From positions 1 to 40,857 of the forward strand of contig JAADES010000005.1 of the NCBI GenBank assembly GCA_013153315.1: 40,857 nucleotides of DNA. The letters run 5' to 3'. Shown piece by piece: positions 23,873-34,444 of the stretch (positions are counted from its first letter, which is position 1; every line of letters starts with the position of its first letter). Made by a program: the position numbers and the translations under genes. Below the pieces are notes generated by a model, which did no database searches, had not been told where the DNA came from, and worked only from the letters and a program-made list of their open reading frames with translations. The DNA comes from Aquificota bacterium. Its GTDB lineage: Bacteria > Aquificota > Aquificia > Aquificales > QOAS01.

Positions 23873-26800
23873 ATGGAACAACCTTTAGAACCCTACCGAA
23901 GGTTAGGGTACCTTTATGAGGCCCTTTTTAACTTAGGTGTCCTAAACGAGCTTCAACATCGATTGGGTTTTAAACCGGCTTGGTTATATTCCTACAGCAA
24001 CCACCGGTTGGACGAGTATTTTTTAGACCTCTATAAGGGCTTCAACATAACTCCCCTGTTTAAGAGTGTAACCCGACGAATTTTAGGATTGTATTTTTTG
24101 CAGGGAAAAACCTTCGCATCACAACTTTTAACAAAACTGGAGGAAAAATTTGAACGTTCCAACCTTGCAGTGTTTTTTTATTACGGAAAACCCTTTCCCA
24201 TAGAGGACGATAAAGATTTTGCCCTTGAAAGATTTTCCCAAAAATTTGGAGAGGAAATAAAACCAATCCTTATAGAGGAAAAAGGTTCTTTAATCCACAC
24301 CGATTGGATTTTACATTTAACAACCGCCGACGGGAAACATGTAATTAACATCGCCGATATTAGTTTTCTCTACGCCAAGGACTACTTTGATTTTTATAAG
24401 TTTCTAAGGGACGAGTTTCTTTTTGCCCATGGAATTTACTCGATTGCCCAGAAGGATGCCTCCATAGTAGGACAAGGCTATGTTTTTAAACCGATAAATT
24501 TAAAATCGGTTGGAAACTTCCGTAAGTTAATAGAAAAGTTATTTACCCTTAAGGTTAAAAATCCCCAAGAGCTAAACCAAATATTGACCCTTTTGCAGAA
24601 GAAAAACCGCGATGTGGCCAAACTCCTGCAAGCCTGTTCCTACACCTACGATTACCTTTCCTACCTTAGGCAGAAAGGATATTTACCTTTAGGAGAAAAG
24701 CCCATTTATATAAACATCTTTGGGATAACCCTTCATAAGTTAGCCCAATTGGGTTTCCAAATAAAAAATCTAAGCCATTGGGAGGATTTAATTTCTTTCC
24801 TTTCTAAGGCAAAGGAAGTTTATTCCACCCAAGTTAACCCTCAAGAGGATTTCCAATTTTTTGAACAATTCACCCAAAGGTTGGAAAAATTTTTGGTTGA
24901 AATTAAACCTGCGGCGGGAATAGAAATTCAAACTAAAAAAGTAAAAACCTTTATACCCGACCAACTAGTGTTGATAGAAAATTGGAAAATCTCGGAAGAA
25001 TTCCGACTCAATGACCAAAAACGGAATTTGCACAAAGAGGTTTTTAAAAATGTTTTAGATAGCCACCCTAAGGTTGCCAATTTAAGCGTTCCCGGAATAG
25101 GTAAAACAACAACACTGCTCGAACACAAAAAGGATAACAGTTTGATTTTCTACACCTCGCCGCGGATTTTTCTAAACAACCAAATGGCGGACAAAATCTT
25201 AGAAAAAAATCCCAACGCGGTTATTTTCTATGCAGTTTCCAGTCTCCCTTACACGGTAATTTATGAAGCCTCCCAACAGTTGGATTTACCCAAATATGTC
25301 CGAATAAAGGGCATAGGAAAAATAAACCTTGTTAGTAAGGAAGAGATAAAGAAAAAAGACCCCGGTTTCTATAGCCAAATAGTTGCTATAAGCGAAAGAA
25401 CCACCGCCAACCGAGGAAAAAACTTTGTTGGTGTGGTTAATAGGTTGTTAAAGACCGTTGCCCGGCTTTTGGAAGACCCTAAAAAACCCCTTAAAGGAAA
25501 AACGATAGCCCTAATCTTTACCACCCAGGCTATACTAAAGAGAGCCCATTACGGGGACACCTTTGAACATATAAAAACCTTCCTAACGGGGGATAAAAAT
25601 TTCCAACGGTTGAACCCCTTTTGGGAAAGAAAACTAAAATCCCTTTACCGGGCAAGGTTTTTATCCAACGATATTAAAAACATCGTATTTGTTATCGATG
25701 AAATAACGGGTTCCGAAACGGGGAGGTTTCTTTTTAAACATTTCTTAAACAGCTACTGGTTTGACGAGTTAAAGAAATTCCTAAAAAGGGAATTTGATTT
25801 AAACCTACTGTTTGCCCTTTTGGATGCCTCCTTAAAAGGGAAAGAGGTTTTTAAAGCCTTTGCCACCGACGACGATATTAGGCCTATCGTATATTTGGCG
25901 GAGGGGAAAAAAGAAGAATACGCCGAGGCAATATTAAACATCCAAGTAAAGGTAAAAAGAGGCCCCTACAGTCACACCTTCCAATGCCTCGACGCGGTAG
26001 GCTTTCCCGCCGCCGAGTTGGATTTTATTTACGATTTCCTACCAATTTACGAAGCCGACTTTAAAAAACAACGGAAACAATTGACCGATGAGCTTCTGAA
26101 AATTTTACAAAATCGTCTGAAAACAAAGGAACAAATCTTAGTTTTTATCCAAGATAAGGAAATATTGGAAGAAATCGAAAAACGGGTTTTAACTTCCCAA
26201 TTACTTAAAGAGGAAGAAGTTTTAACAATACATTCCCTTACAAAGGAAGATGAAAACCGAAACCTAAAAAAGGTTAGGTTAATATTGGCCACCTCTTCCG
26301 CCAGTAGGGGAATTACCTTTCCTTTGGTCGATTCCTATATAGTGGTTTTACCCTTTTTTGAAACCGAAAGTAATTTGGCCGAAATAGTTCAAACCCTCTA
26401 CAGGGGCCGAAGTAGTCTTGAAACTCCCGAAGGGAAGAAAATCTCCAAAGAGGACGGAAAAAGGGAAATTTACCTATTGGCTCCCATCTACTGTTCAAAT
26501 AAATACGATTATTTCCGCCGATTGGCCGAGGCTTTGGAAATGGCCATTTTATTAAAGGCTTCTCTGCTGACAGTTTCTTCGGGCAATTTTGTAATTCAAA
26601 CCAAGGGAGAAGAAAAAGTCTTAAAAATAGTCCCCGTAGGGATACAGAGGGACAAAGTTTTCCACCCATTTAAGGAGTTTGAAAGAATTTATATTTCCTC
26701 GGTAAGTTGTCTAAGGCAGTTGATAAAAATAGAAAGCCCCGCCCGAGGTTATGCCTACCAACTGCTAAAAATCCTAAACGAGGAATTTTTAAATTGGGTA

Positions 26801-27433
26801 AAAAGTTTTCTTCCACCGCAAGCCTTGGAACTTATCTTGGGCTATCTGAACGAGTTGGACTATACCTCCACCGTAGAGGATTTTTTAAGACTAACCCACC
26901 CTTGGGAGGAACATATAAAACCCCTTACCGTAAAAGGACACAACATTATTTTCTCCACCTATTTGGTTAGAACGGCCTTTTCCTCCAAAAGAGACAAGGA
27001 AATGTTGAACCGTGTTTTGTTCCTAATAAAGAAAATCCTCTCTTTGGACCCCAACAATGGAGTTCCACTGAAGGCGTTGGAAGAATTTTTAATGAAACAG
27101 AGGGAGGAGCATATAGATATAAGCCCCGAAGCGGTGGAAAGGGTTTTGATAGTTCCCCCCTTAGGTTGGAATTATGAAAACATGGCTATTTCCGACAAGT
27201 TATATTCCCTCTGCCGAGAAAACAAATCTTTAACCAACCTTTTGGGAAGTCTTATATATTCCTTTTTGGGAACCAAAGGAAACTTTTACCCCCAAAGGTG
27301 CCATAAACAGGAATACCCCTTCGGGATAACCGATTTACCTTCCCACCTTTTTGAGGAAGTAGAAAAGGAATTCCTAAAGGAGGGAAATCTATTTTTATCG
27401 AGCGAAATAAACCTATTGGAGTTGATGGTTTAG
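23873..27433 (+). CDS. large SF2-helicase-like protein of unknown function
   Basis: Walker A VPGIGKTTTL (about 25088), Walker B IVFVIDEITG (about 25685), motif III-like LLDASLKG, motif V/VI-like ATSSASRGITFPLVDSYIVVLPFFETE...EIVQTLYRGRSS. Confidence 0.75.
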   Translation: MEQPLEPYRRLGYLYEALFNLGVLNELQHRLGFKPAWLYSYSNHRLDEYFLDLYKGFNITPLFKSVTRRILGLYFLQGKTFASQLLTKLEEKFERSNLAVFFYYGKPFPIEDDKDFALERFSQKFGEEIKPILIEEKGSLIHTDWILHLTTADGKHVINIADISFLYAKDYFDFYKFLRDEFLFAHGIYSIAQKDASIVGQGYVFKPINLKSVGNFRKLIEKLFTLKVKNPQELNQILTLLQKKNRDVAKLLQACSYTYDYLSYLRQKGYLPLGEKPIYINIFGITLHKLAQLGFQIKNLSHWEDLISFLSKAKEVYSTQVNPQEDFQFFEQFTQRLEKFLVEIKPAAGIEIQTKKVKTFIPDQLVLIENWKISEEFRLNDQKRNLHKEVFKNVLDSHPKVANLSVPGIGKTTTLLEHKKDNSLIFYTSPRIFLNNQMADKILEKNPNAVIFYAVSSLPYTVIYEASQQLDLPKYVRIKGIGKINLVSKEEIKKKDPGFYSQIVAISERTTANRGKNFVGVVNRLLKTVARLLEDPKKPLKGKTIALIFTTQAILKRAHYGDTFEHIKTFLTGDKNFQRLNPFWERKLKSLYRARFLSNDIKNIVFVIDEITGSETGRFLFKHFLNSYWFDELKKFLKREFDLNLLFALLDASLKGKEVFKAFATDDDIRPIVYLAEGKKEEYAEAILNIQVKVKRGPYSHTFQCLDAVGFPAAELDFIYDFLPIYEADFKKQRKQLTDELLKILQNRLKTKEQILVFIQDKEILEEIEKRVLTSQLLKEEEVLTIHSLTKEDENRNLKKVRLILATSSASRGITFPLVDSYIVVLPFFETESNLAEIVQTLYRGRSSLETPEGKKISKEDGKREIYLLAPIYCSNKYDYFRRLAEALEMAILLKASLLTVSSGNFVIQTKGEEKVLKIVPVGIQRDKVFHPFKEFERIYISSVSCLRQLIKIESPARGYAYQLLKILNEEFLNWVKSFLPPQALELILGYLNELDYTSTVEDFLRLTHPWEEHIKPLTVKGHNIIFSTYLVRTAFSSKRDKEMLNRVLFLIKKILSLDPNNGVPLKALEEFLMKQREEHIDISPEAVERVLIVPPLGWNYENMAISDKLYSLCRENKSLTNLLGSLIYSFLGTKGNFYPQRCHKQEYPFGITDLPSHLFEEVEKEFLKEGNLFLSSEINLLELMV

Positions 27434-27439
27434 ATGTTC

Positions 27440-28849
27440 TTATTCCTCAAGAGGCTTGTCCATAGCTATAAACCATTGGGGGGTGGCTCGGAATATTACA
27501 GGACTTTTACAACGCCAACAGTGGGGATAGCTGTGTTTTAGGTCGGAGAGTTTTACCAAAGCATTTTTCTCTTTCAAAATCTCTATAACCTGATAATTGG
27601 CGGGGGAACGGACTATTTGATAGTTTTCTTTATTTCTTCTTCCTGTTTGCTCGTAAATTCGGAGCCCTCTCAAGGGAGGAATTACCTCATCGGTATAGAA
27701 ACCTTGGTCATCAACGGGGGCAAAGGGCTCCAGACCGTATTTTCTTCCCACAATGTAGTCCTCATTACCGTGGCCGGGCGCCATATGAACAAGACCGGTT
27801 CCGGTGTCAAGGGTAACAAATTCCGAGGGGTATATTTTGAACATATTCTGAACAGTTTCGGGCTTTAAAAATTGAGCTAAAAATTCCTTGGTGTTGAAAG
27901 GATGCTCGTATTCCAGACCAACCAACTGCTCGCCTTTTACCTCTCCCAAAATAATACCTTCGGGCAATTCGGTTTCTTTATAGAAGTTGTCCAACAGCTC
28001 TTTTGCAACTATGAAAACCTCGTCGCCGGGGGCAAGGTCTCCCATTTCTACCAGCACATAATCGGCGTCGGGTTTAACCATAATGCCGAGGTTGGCGGGC
28101 AAAGTCCAAGGGGTGGTAGTCCAAATTATCGCGTAAACCTTTCTATTGGCCAATAGGGGCGAAATTTTTTCAGGGTTTTTGATTCTGAACTTCACATAGA
28201 TGGAGGGGTCTTTCTTTTCGTTATATTCCACTTCGGCTTCAGCCTCGGCGGTGGAGCAGAAGATGCACCAATAGACGGGTTTTTTACCTCGGTAAACTAT
28301 TCCCCTGTCGAAAATACGCCCCAGTTCCCTAACCTCGGTTGCCTGATATTGGGGCTTCATCGTTAGATAGGGGTTTTCCCAGTCGCCCAGCACTCCCAAA
28401 CGGATAAAGTCGGCCTTTTGGATTTCAACCCATTTTTTAGCGTATTCGCGGCACAACTTGCGGAACTGGGCTTTGGGAATGTCCTCTTTGCTTTTTCCTT
28501 CTTCTTTAAGCTGTTCTTCCACTTTCAGTTCTATGGGAAGGCCGTGGCAGTCCCAACCGGGAACATAGTCTATATCCTTACCCTGCATTAGTTCGTATTT
28601 GTTTATGATGTCTTTGAGGATTTTGTTCAAGGCGTGCCCTATGTGAATTTGGCCGTTGGCGTAGGGAGGCCCATCGTGGAGCACCCAAAGGGGTTTTCCC
28701 TTTCTTTGCTCCTTTATCTTTTTATAAAGACCCTCCCAATGTTGGGCTATTTGGGGTTCCCTCTTTGGGAGGTTAGCCTTCATAGGGAAATCGGTTTTAG
28801 GTAAATTTAAAGTGTTTTTTAGGTCTATCTGCTTTTTTTCTTCCGACAT
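27440..28849 (-). CDS. ileS: isoleucyl-tRNA synthetase N-terminal half (HIGH and CP1 editing domain only)
   Basis: [70 protein letters not shown]; ends [26 protein letters not shown] at 469 aa with no KMSKS half. Confidence 0.9.
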
Positions 28850-29512: not shown

Positions 29513-30454
29513 ATGAGGTTTAGGAAATACTCCCGAAAGCACGCCTTTAACATAATCTATCAGTGGGATATAACCGGAGAAGATTTTTCCAAAGTTAGGA
29601 ACGAATATTGGAAGACCTTGGAAAGGAGCTATTCCAATGTTATAGAGGTCTCCGATAGTTTGCTCTCGCAGTTGGATAACTTTAACGAGGAAGTTTTTGC
29701 CAAAAAGTTCGAAGCCTTGGCCGATGAGGAAATTCTCGCCGACAAGCTCCGCAAAGAGCTTTACGCTATTTTTACCCTTTTAAAACAGTTGGAGGAATTC
29801 GATAAGTTCTACCTAACCGTAACGGAATATTTAAGTGAAAAGAACAAAAAAAGGAAATTGAAAGCTATAGAGCTCCTTACCGAGATAAAAAACACCTTTG
29901 AGCAACTAAAGAAGCTGGACAAAGATAACGCCACCCTTTTGGAGGATATTATCAATTTACTGGACCAAATAAAAGAAAACTTCCCCGAAGATTTCGATAG
30001 CCTAAAGAGGTATAAAGAAGAATTCCAACAAAAGGTTAAGGAGGTTCTGAAAATCTACCTCCAAAGGGCTAAAGAATTTTCCCAAAAGAGATTAAACCAA
30101 GATATGGGAGAAATAAAGGAATATGCCAATAGGCTTTTGGACGCCTTTGAACAGCACCAAATAGAAATAGATAGCATCATAGAGGAATATCTGAAGGATT
30201 GGACACTTGACCGTTTGGGAAGTATAGAAAGGAACCTTCTAAGGTTGGGAACCGCCGAGTTTGTTTTTGTGGGTGTGCAAGACCCCGGTAGGGCTTTTAA
30301 CGATTACATAGATTTCGCCAAAGCTTTTGTTGGTAAAAAGGCGGCAAAATTTGTCAACGGCGTTCTTTCGGCAATTTACCGCGATAAAGGTAAAAAACCC
30401 CAAGAGCCCCAACTTGAGGAAAAGGAAACCTCTAACACTCCCGCCGAAGGTTAA
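29513..30454 (+). CDS. nusB: NusB-like antitermination factor with large internal insertion
   Basis: N-terminus RKYSRKHAFNIIYQWDITGEDF; C-terminus IEEYLKDWTLDRLGSIERNLLRLGTAEFVF...AFNDYIDFAKAFVGKKAAKFVNGVLSAI; about 165 aa of helical sequence between. Confidence 0.85.
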   Translation: MRFRKYSRKHAFNIIYQWDITGEDFSKVRNEYWKTLERSYSNVIEVSDSLLSQLDNFNEEVFAKKFEALADEEILADKLRKELYAIFTLLKQLEEFDKFYLTVTEYLSEKNKKRKLKAIELLTEIKNTFEQLKKLDKDNATLLEDIINLLDQIKENFPEDFDSLKRYKEEFQQKVKEVLKIYLQRAKEFSQKRLNQDMGEIKEYANRLLDAFEQHQIEIDSIIEEYLKDWTLDRLGSIERNLLRLGTAEFVFVGVQDPGRAFNDYIDFAKAFVGKKAAKFVNGVLSAIYRDKGKKPQEPQLEEKETSNTPAEG

Positions 30455-32584: not shown

Positions 32585-34444
32585 ATGGCCAAAGAAAATT
32601 TTTCACCACCGGCGGTAATAAAAGAAAATACCCCCAAGAGGGAAATAATTAAAAAAGTCCTTTCGTTGGCCTTTCCAATAATTCTTTCCAACCTCTTATA
32701 TACGGTTCAAAATTTTGTTTCCCTGCTGTTGGTTTCGCCTCTGGGTAAGGAAACCATTGCGGGGGTGGGGTTTGCCTCTACCCTTTTGTGGTTTGTCTAT
32801 GCCACAATGGCAACGGTCTACACCGGTGTTTCGGTTTTAGTTGCCCAAACGGTGGGTGCAAGCGGGGCTAAAGAGGATAAAACCTTTCCTTTAGCGGGTG
32901 TCTACGTTTTTTGGGGAATTCTTCTGTCGGTTTTATTTTCCCTTCCTTTAACTTTGGCGGGAGAAAATTTTATTCGCTTTTTCCTAAAACTATTCTCCAC
33001 ACCGTCGGAGGTTGTGGAGGTCGCTGTTTCCTATTTAAAACCGATATTTTTGCTTTTACCTTTGGCCTTTATAACCAACGTTTTTAATGCCGCCTTCAAC
33101 GGATTGGGTAAGACCAAGGTAATTTTTTATGCAACCATTTTTACAACGGTGGTAAATATAGCCTTGGCGTTAGTTTTGATTTACGGCTTATTAGGCTTTC
33201 CACGGTTGGAAGCCCAAGGGGCCGGTTGGGCTGTAGGTGTCGCCGAAGCTTTGGCTATAGGAGTTTACCTTCCCTTCCTTCTGAAAGAAGAGGCTATAAA
33301 TCCCTTCCGAAGGTGGAAATTATCTATTAAACCTCTGTTGGAAATTTTAAAAGTAGGTCTACCTACCGGTGTGGAAAGAACCTTTATGAGTTTTTCCTAC
33401 AATGTCTTTGTAGGTTTGGTAGCCCTTTGCGGGACTTCGGTTTTGGCCGCTTTCCAAATAGGGTTGAGAATTGAATCCATTTCCTTCACCGTAGGAATGG
33501 CTTTTTCCTTTGCCGCCACCACCTTGGCCGGTCAAAATTGGGGAGCTAAAAACCCCTTTGGGATAGAAAAGGGGGTTAAAACAACCCTCTATTTGGCAAT
33601 GGTAATAATGACCTCCTTAGGTTTGCTTATAGGTATTTTTTCACCTCTTATAGCAAGGTTTTTTACCCACGACGGGGAGGTTATATATTGGACTGTTCAC
33701 TATCTGTGGATTATCGCCCTTAGCCAACCCCTTATGGCGGTAATTTTTGTATTGGCGGGTGCTATAAGAGGTTTGGGAAAAACCAAAATTCCTTTGGTGG
33801 TAAACCTTTCCAACTTTTGGCTGGTTAGGTTAATACCCTCCTTTATCCTTTTGAAGTTCTTTAAAACACCTTACGTTCCTTGGTCGGCAATGATAGCGGA
33901 AAACCTTACCCGCTCAACGGTCTATTACTTTCTTTGGAAGAAGATAATAAAAACCATGGAGTTTGATAATTTTAAAAACCCCTCGGTCGGTATATCTAAA
34001 AAATTCGGTAGCAGTAAAGGAATGTCCTTAATAACCGCCCTTTTTGTGTTGGTTTTTGTAACCTTAACCCTTTCGGCTATAGGACTTTTGTTTAATAAAT
34101 ATGTCCAAAGCACCACATATGTGCAGCGGTTTGAAACTACCCAAGAGGCGGCAAGGGCGGTGGCCAAAGATTTACTTCAAGAAATAAATACAGGAAATTT
34201 TACCGTTGACACAACAACCTGCGACGTAGGATGTTCCGACAACGAAGAACCCTGCCCTATAGACCTTCCCCCCGAAATCGAGGAAACTTTAAAAGCTTCA
34301 AATATAACCGCCCAAGCTTACCTTTTAAAAAAGTGCGATTCGGATAACGCTACCCTTTACACAATAAGGGTTCAAGCCAGCTACAACAACGGAACCCAAA
34401 CCAACATTTTGATTATTTATAAAATTCCTAAACCCTCTTCCTAA
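32585..34444 (+). CDS. MATE-family transporter fused in frame to a prepilin/PilX-like domain
   Basis: Residues 1 to about 457 are a 12-TM MATE protein; residues 458-619 include KKFGSSKG-MSLITALFVLVFVTLTLSAIGLLF, type IV pilin-like, then a Cys-containing exported-type domain. Confidence 0.8.
   Translation: MAKENFSPPAVIKENTPKREIIKKVLSLAFPIILSNLLYTVQNFVSLLLVSPLGKETIAGVGFASTLLWFVYATMATVYTGVSVLVAQTVGASGAKEDKTFPLAGVYVFWGILLSVLFSLPLTLAGENFIRFFLKLFSTPSEVVEVAVSYLKPIFLLLPLAFITNVFNAAFNGLGKTKVIFYATIFTTVVNIALALVLIYGLLGFPRLEAQGAGWAVGVAEALAIGVYLPFLLKEEAINPFRRWKLSIKPLLEILKVGLPTGVERTFMSFSYNVFVGLVALCGTSVLAAFQIGLRIESISFTVGMAFSFAATTLAGQNWGAKNPFGIEKGVKTTLYLAMVIMTSLGLLIGIFSPLIARFFTHDGEVIYWTVHYLWIIALSQPLMAVIFVLAGAIRGLGKTKIPLVVNLSNFWLVRLIPSFILLKFFKTPYVPWSAMIAENLTRSTVYYFLWKKIIKTMEFDNFKNPSVGISKKFGSSKGMSLITALFVLVFVTLTLSAIGLLFNKYVQSTTYVQRFETTQEAARAVAKDLLQEINTGNFTVDTTTCDVGCSDNEEPCPIDLPPEIEETLKASNITAQAYLLKKCDSDNATLYTIRVQASYNNGTQTNILIIYKIPKPSS

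Follow-up and report, generated by a model that had tools for sequence, protein, structure and literature searches.

Class I aminoacyl-tRNA synthetases bind ATP jointly through the HIGH and KMSKS motifs. Escherichia coli isoleucyl-tRNA synthetase (IleRS) reportedly reassembles after being cut at many positions, as Shiba and Schimmel are said to have found in 1992, and the leucyl-tRNA synthetase (LeuRS) of Aquifex aeolicus reportedly has a 'split leucine-specific domain', in the words of Ma in 2006. The latter enzyme works as two subunits, as shown experimentally (Xu 2002, as cited in PMC9976931). In archaea, a split pheT is described for Altiarchaeales (PMC4975002), and a split alanyl-tRNA synthetase (AlaRS) for Nanoarchaeota (as cited in PMC4975002). 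Split class Ia synthetases and lineage-wide archaeal synthetase fissions are already known as a kind. Here, we analyze a 40,857-nt stretch of DNA (the window; contig JAADES010000005.1, C43 below) from an uncultured heat-loving genus of Aquificales, in which an open reading frame (ORF) on the minus strand, ileS-alpha, encodes the N-terminal half of IleRS, and its counterpart on another contig, ileS-beta, which encodes the C-terminal half. No report of a natural split IleRS, a split valyl-tRNA synthetase (ValRS) or a three-piece LeuRS was found in the open-licence literature searched.

The likeness to A. aeolicus LeuRS, drawn in the original prediction made from the window's sequence, is apt: in both cases a class Ia synthetase of the same bacterial order is encoded by two genes, with HIGH and the CP1 editing domain in one chain and KMSKS and the anticodon-binding domain in the other, and with no full-length copy alongside the two complementary genes of the genus. 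The place of the cut differs, however, since the break in A. aeolicus LeuRS lies immediately ahead of KMSKS, in the leucine-specific domain, whereas that in IleRS follows CP1; moreover, the LeuRS cut is common to other Aquificales, whereas the IleRS cut occurs only in this genus in our sample. Like Altiarchaeales pheT and Nanoarchaeota AlaRS, this is a lineage-wide synthetase fission between conserved blocks with the halves on separate contigs, but the archaeal cases concern class II enzymes and, as reported, one synthetase gene each, in contrast to four new fissions in one bacterial genus here. The E. coli IleRS pieces also come as a reassembling pair, but those were made in the laboratory, whereas the present pair, which we infer to reassemble, is natural and inherited.

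Two genes together encode one complete IleRS

ileS-alpha is an intact N-terminal half of IleRS that ends in the stop codon TAA. Its features, and those of ileS-beta, are as follows.

27440–28849, minus strand: ileS-alpha, HIGH and CP1, 469 aa; TIGR00392 positions 2-433 of 861, Pfam tRNA-synt_1 positions 3-198 of 414, 8c9e residues 2-415
28637–28648, minus strand: HIGH motif at residues 68-71, contributing half of the ATP-binding site, with its partner KMSKS in the other gene; from sequence, with invariant columns H68, G70 and H71
27650–28213, minus strand: CP1 editing domain, approximately residues 213-400; matches the isolated IleRS editing domains 1ue0 and 1wk8 (Foldseek TM-score 0.90-0.91 by target) and is modelled with high confidence
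27605–27652, minus strand: 16-aa insertion, residues 400-415; from alignment, with low model confidence at 402-412
27458–27538, minus strand: last conserved block of alpha, residues 438-464; from alignment and invariant columns
27440–27457, minus strand: C-terminal tail KPLEE with the stop codon TAA, marking the fission point within a variable loop; from sequence and alignment
G000:C30:11750-13306, plus strand (outside the window): ileS-beta, 518 aa; TIGR00392 positions 429-856, KMSKS, Pfam Anticodon_1 and zf-FPG_IleRS

The match of alpha to TIGR00392 (ileS) bears out the earlier description of a 469-aa frame with HIGH and CP1 that is an N-terminal half only. The 6 bp said to separate its stop from that of a convergent ORF are also present, the latter ORF ending at 27433, and contig C43 contains a single ileS match in the profile search and no C-terminal half, as had been stated. 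The end of the gene had been placed at the boundary between CP1 and the catalytic core. That it is half a gene stands, while the exact position is now refined: alpha runs through CP1 and the conserved strands after it, and stops in a variable loop directly after those strands, with the tail KPLEE adding 5 residues past the last conserved block. The end is not at a contig edge, as 27 kb of C43 lie beyond it, and it is not due to chance, because it recurs within a few residues in six genomes. The 16-aa insertion, which lies just before the final helix and strands, is found in the split alphas of the genus and is absent from 30 intact IleRSs in the alignment; it may aid assembly of the halves.

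The original prediction proposed a search of the rest of the genome for a C-terminal half and a second ileS. In the genome that contains the window (58 contigs, 94.85% complete), the profile search returned a further high-scoring TIGR00392 match on contig C30 and no full-length ileS on any of the 58 contigs. This match, ileS-beta, opens with its own ATG at C30:11750 (MEEKKTLRQLALKEI... / MEEKKTLRQLALKEIDRVKWIPQSGYNRI...) and comprises the other half of the class I core, KMSKS included, as well as the anticodon-binding domain and the C-terminal IleRS zinc finger. The nearest contig end is 4.9 kb away, so that, with 27 kb beyond alpha, both halves lie clear of contig edges. Alpha scores 517 bits and beta 448 bits against the curated TIGR00392 cut-off of 621.4 bits; alpha falls under it because it is half a protein, and as no single chain exceeds it, membership of the IleRS family is claimed for the pair and not for either chain. 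Beta is flanked by a Cas6-like gene on one side and, as judged by eye, a nicotinamidase-like gene on the other. The Cas6-like gene (L011:10886-11686, plus strand) lies directly upstream of beta.

Residue for residue, the two halves complement each other. Priestia megaterium IleRS1 (8c9e) is matched by alpha over residues 2-415 and by beta over residues 416-915, with nothing missing, and Staphylococcus aureus IleRS (1ffy) over residues 2-418 and 419-915, respectively. An alignment to 30 intact Aquificales IleRSs places the cut in a loop whose length varies; beta starts approximately 5 residues before the next conserved block, and the alpha tail KPLEE and the beta start MEEKK together have about the length of the original loop. 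A set of 26 intact IleRSs has 181 invariant columns, of which alpha covers 99 and beta the other 82, leaving none between them; 180 are identical across all split copies, and the remaining one shows a change of I to V. The signature motifs, HIGH in alpha and KMSKS in beta, are conserved with the family, and CP1, the anticodon-binding domain and the IleRS zinc finger are all present across the pair.

The fission is old, and both halves are under purifying selection

The genus is represented by seven genomes, and none of them yielded a full-length ileS. Specifically, the six further genomes (G001–G006, named congeners being the Aquificales metagenome-assembled genomes DTXZ01, JALVTI01, JALWDU01 and JALSNH01) show the same division, with alpha frames spanning 464-500 aa and beta frames 523-546 aa, and the two halves never share a contig. 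Alpha was recovered in six of the seven genomes and beta in six of the seven; the poorest assemblies, G002 and G005, yielded one half each, and the G005 alpha is cut by its contig. The presence of beta together with the absence of a full-length ileS decides in favor of fission, one of the two options originally offered.

Outside the genus, ileS is whole in 34/34 genomes of the two other families of the order searched, and in a phylum sample of 121 genomes no in-contig split was found in other lineages, seven fragmented genomes outside the genus giving no match at the strict threshold. The four partial matches inspected, in G078, G091, G098 and G105, were rejected as splits, as all of them reach contig ends. 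Among 80 ileS loci, 71 carry a full-length ORF, and the other nine comprise four from this genus, four that run off the contig and one with an internal frame of 729 aa (L092). In quick trees of each half, with SH-aLRT support only, the genus forms one fully supported clade beside the two other Aquificales families, and this agreement is expected if the halves descend from one vertically inherited gene.

Within the genus, identity to the copy in the window's genome is 81-86% for alpha and 80-84% for beta, and the ratio of nonsynonymous to synonymous substitution rates (dN/dS) in pairs without saturation is 0.03-0.09. Both halves are under strong purifying selection and the split is kept across the genus, in agreement with the earlier view of a stable arrangement rather than random decay. 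The flanking genes of alpha differ among the window's genome, G001, G003/G004 and G006, and the neighbors of beta in the window's genome and G006 differ from those in G001-G004, indicating that the split has persisted while the genes moved repeatedly, and that linkage does not maintain it. The flanks of intact ileS genes match neither those of alpha nor those of beta, and thus give no synteny hint of the ancestral position. The foreign insertion once suspected beside alpha finds no support, as the helicase-like ORF is peculiar to this genome and different genes adjoin alpha in each relative checked. We conclude that ileS underwent fission long ago and that the arrangement is stable; it is neither a remnant nor a misassembly.

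The convergent helicase-like ORF (23873–27433, plus strand) encodes 1186 aa with a weak Helicase_C match and none in PADLOC or NCBIfam; it was not found beside alpha in congeners.

The two chains probably form a heterodimer with a shared active site

We put at roughly 0.9 the probability that a single fission in the ancestor of the genus gave rise to two separately expressed genes, whose products form a non-covalent heterodimer with the active site rebuilt at the interface. In this mechanism, ileS would have been broken once, into two complete genes, and alpha and beta would then bind each other and divide the labor, with alpha supplying HIGH and editing, and beta supplying KMSKS and recognition of the tRNA anticodon. 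The two halves exist, complement each other, are conserved, and are the only ileS found in the genus. As in A. aeolicus LeuRS, they most likely re-associate non-covalently into an active heterodimer; their physical assembly and activity are what we infer. As far as sequence tells, the active site is shared between the chains, because HIGH and KMSKS lie in different ones, so neither half should activate isoleucine alone.

Modelled separately, CP1 in alpha and the anticodon and zinc domains in beta are predicted with high confidence, and both Rossmann halves with low confidence, a pattern that fits halves that complete each other; by Foldseek, both models match full-length IleRS structures. Two points weigh on the other side. 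The low confidence of the Rossmann halves may partly reflect shallow alignments, and the window's genome is a 95%-complete draft, so that the absence of a full-length gene from one such genome is not absolute, although seven genomes agree.

Half-length genes are often decayed copies, and with a draft approximately 95% complete, alpha could in principle be a truncated duplicate or pseudogene while a full-length ileS does the work. The original prediction offered this as its other option, but the lack of a full-length gene in the window's genome and its six congeners, and a dN/dS that shows no relaxed selection on either half, make it exceedingly improbable. We give equally little credit to an artefact of assembly or binning, in which one ileS is broken across contigs or misjoined. 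Every genome of the genus is indeed a fragmented draft, yet the in-frame stop of alpha and the ATG of beta lie inside contigs in the separate assemblies DTXZ01, JALVTI01 and JALWDU01, unlike true contig-edge breaks such as those in G078, G091, G098 and G105.

The products might instead be joined covalently, by RNA trans-splicing or a split intein, to give a full-length IleRS. Inteins are common in the genus, with two or three in dnaE; however, alpha ends 5 residues, and beta begins approximately 5 residues, from conserved blocks, with no intein sequence at either place, and the join falls in a variable loop, whereas inteins usually occupy conserved sites, which leaves covalent joining very unlikely, although no detailed search for a trans-splicing signal was made. 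Somewhat less remote, although still improbable, is that the halves hold separate jobs in addition to the synthetase; alpha on its own could, for instance, serve in trans-editing. In favor of this, modelling predicts independent folding of CP1 within alpha, and structures of isolated IleRS CP1 domains have been solved, but all invariant residues of alpha outside CP1 are still conserved, and a pure editing factor would not need them.

Further synthetase genes are split in the genus

Genes for ValRS, LeuRS and the beta subunit of phenylalanyl-tRNA synthetase (PheRS-beta) are also in pieces.

G000:C56 (L013:1813-3900), minus strand: ValRS piece 1, 695 aa, ending ...WPEITKEDIKEAEKFIKENP*
G000:C57 (L012:3962-5224), plus strand: ValRS piece 2, 420 aa, starting just before YPTDLLVTGFDIIFFW
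C12 (L006:910-2013), minus strand: LeuRS piece, 367 aa
C26 (L009:about 1351-2088), plus strand: LeuRS piece, ~245 aa
C7 (L008:1309-2196), minus strand: LeuRS piece, 295 aa
G000:C34:13224-14528, plus strand: PheRS-beta piece 1
G000:C23:3998-5035, minus strand: PheRS-beta piece 2

ValRS is also split in congeners and is whole in 18/18 sister genomes searched. For LeuRS, only this genus has the first cut, which lies inside the editing domain, while the second, before KMSKS, also occurs in one sister family and in part of the other, and corresponds to the arrangement in A. aeolicus. PheRS-beta is cut inside the B5 domain, in contrast to Altiarchaeales pheT, which is cut before B5, and carries genus-specific tails of ~75 aa on the first piece and ~30 aa heading the second. 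It is split in the seven congeners (in G002 the first piece is broken across contigs and the second was not recovered) and whole in 34/34 sister genomes.

By frame length, AlaRS (872 aa, congeners), MetRS (642 aa) and CysRS (494 aa) are whole, as are three class II enzymes, of 666, 574 and 430 aa, whose lengths suggest ThrRS, ProRS and SerRS. RpoC is whole. CarB, which is known in two pieces in Aquificales, is in two pieces in the genus. This brings the new fissions to at least four, and among the genes tested every one of them affects a synthetase; the preference for synthetases is suggestive only, because the sample of other genes is small. We rate at even odds a systematic fragmentation of the large editing synthetases (IleRS, ValRS and PheRS-beta in two pieces, LeuRS in three), all obligate multi-chain enzymes, by a process that prefers synthetases; this process may be a neutral ratchet, or subunits that can be separated and regulated one by one may have been selected for.

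A candidate fission of dnaE was rejected, since both G000 contigs end inside a dnaE intein, the G006 pieces end at contig edges, and the gene is whole with inteins in G003. The dnaE inteins (L195, L196 and L199) number two in the window's genome and three in G003, and in the window's genome the assembly breaks inside an intein.

Elsewhere in the window, a NusB-like protein (29513–30454, plus strand, 313 aa) has a long insertion in its interior and is about double the usual length. The ORF of a MATE transporter (32585–34444, plus strand) continues without a stop, in frame, into a type IV pilin-like N-terminus (GMSLITALFVLVFVTLTLSA...), either a fusion or a sequencing error.

Significance

If the pair works, the genus holds a natural, inherited counterpart of the artificially cut IleRS, in an enzyme needed by every cell, and it also provides a natural three-piece LeuRS. 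The lineage's four new synthetase fissions all differ in position and constitute a natural experiment on how multi-chain forms of essential enzymes arise and why, through constructive neutral evolution or through selection. In such genomes, length-based annotation would call essential genes missing or pseudogenes. If true, natural protein-building machinery is able to run in pieces to a far greater extent than known.
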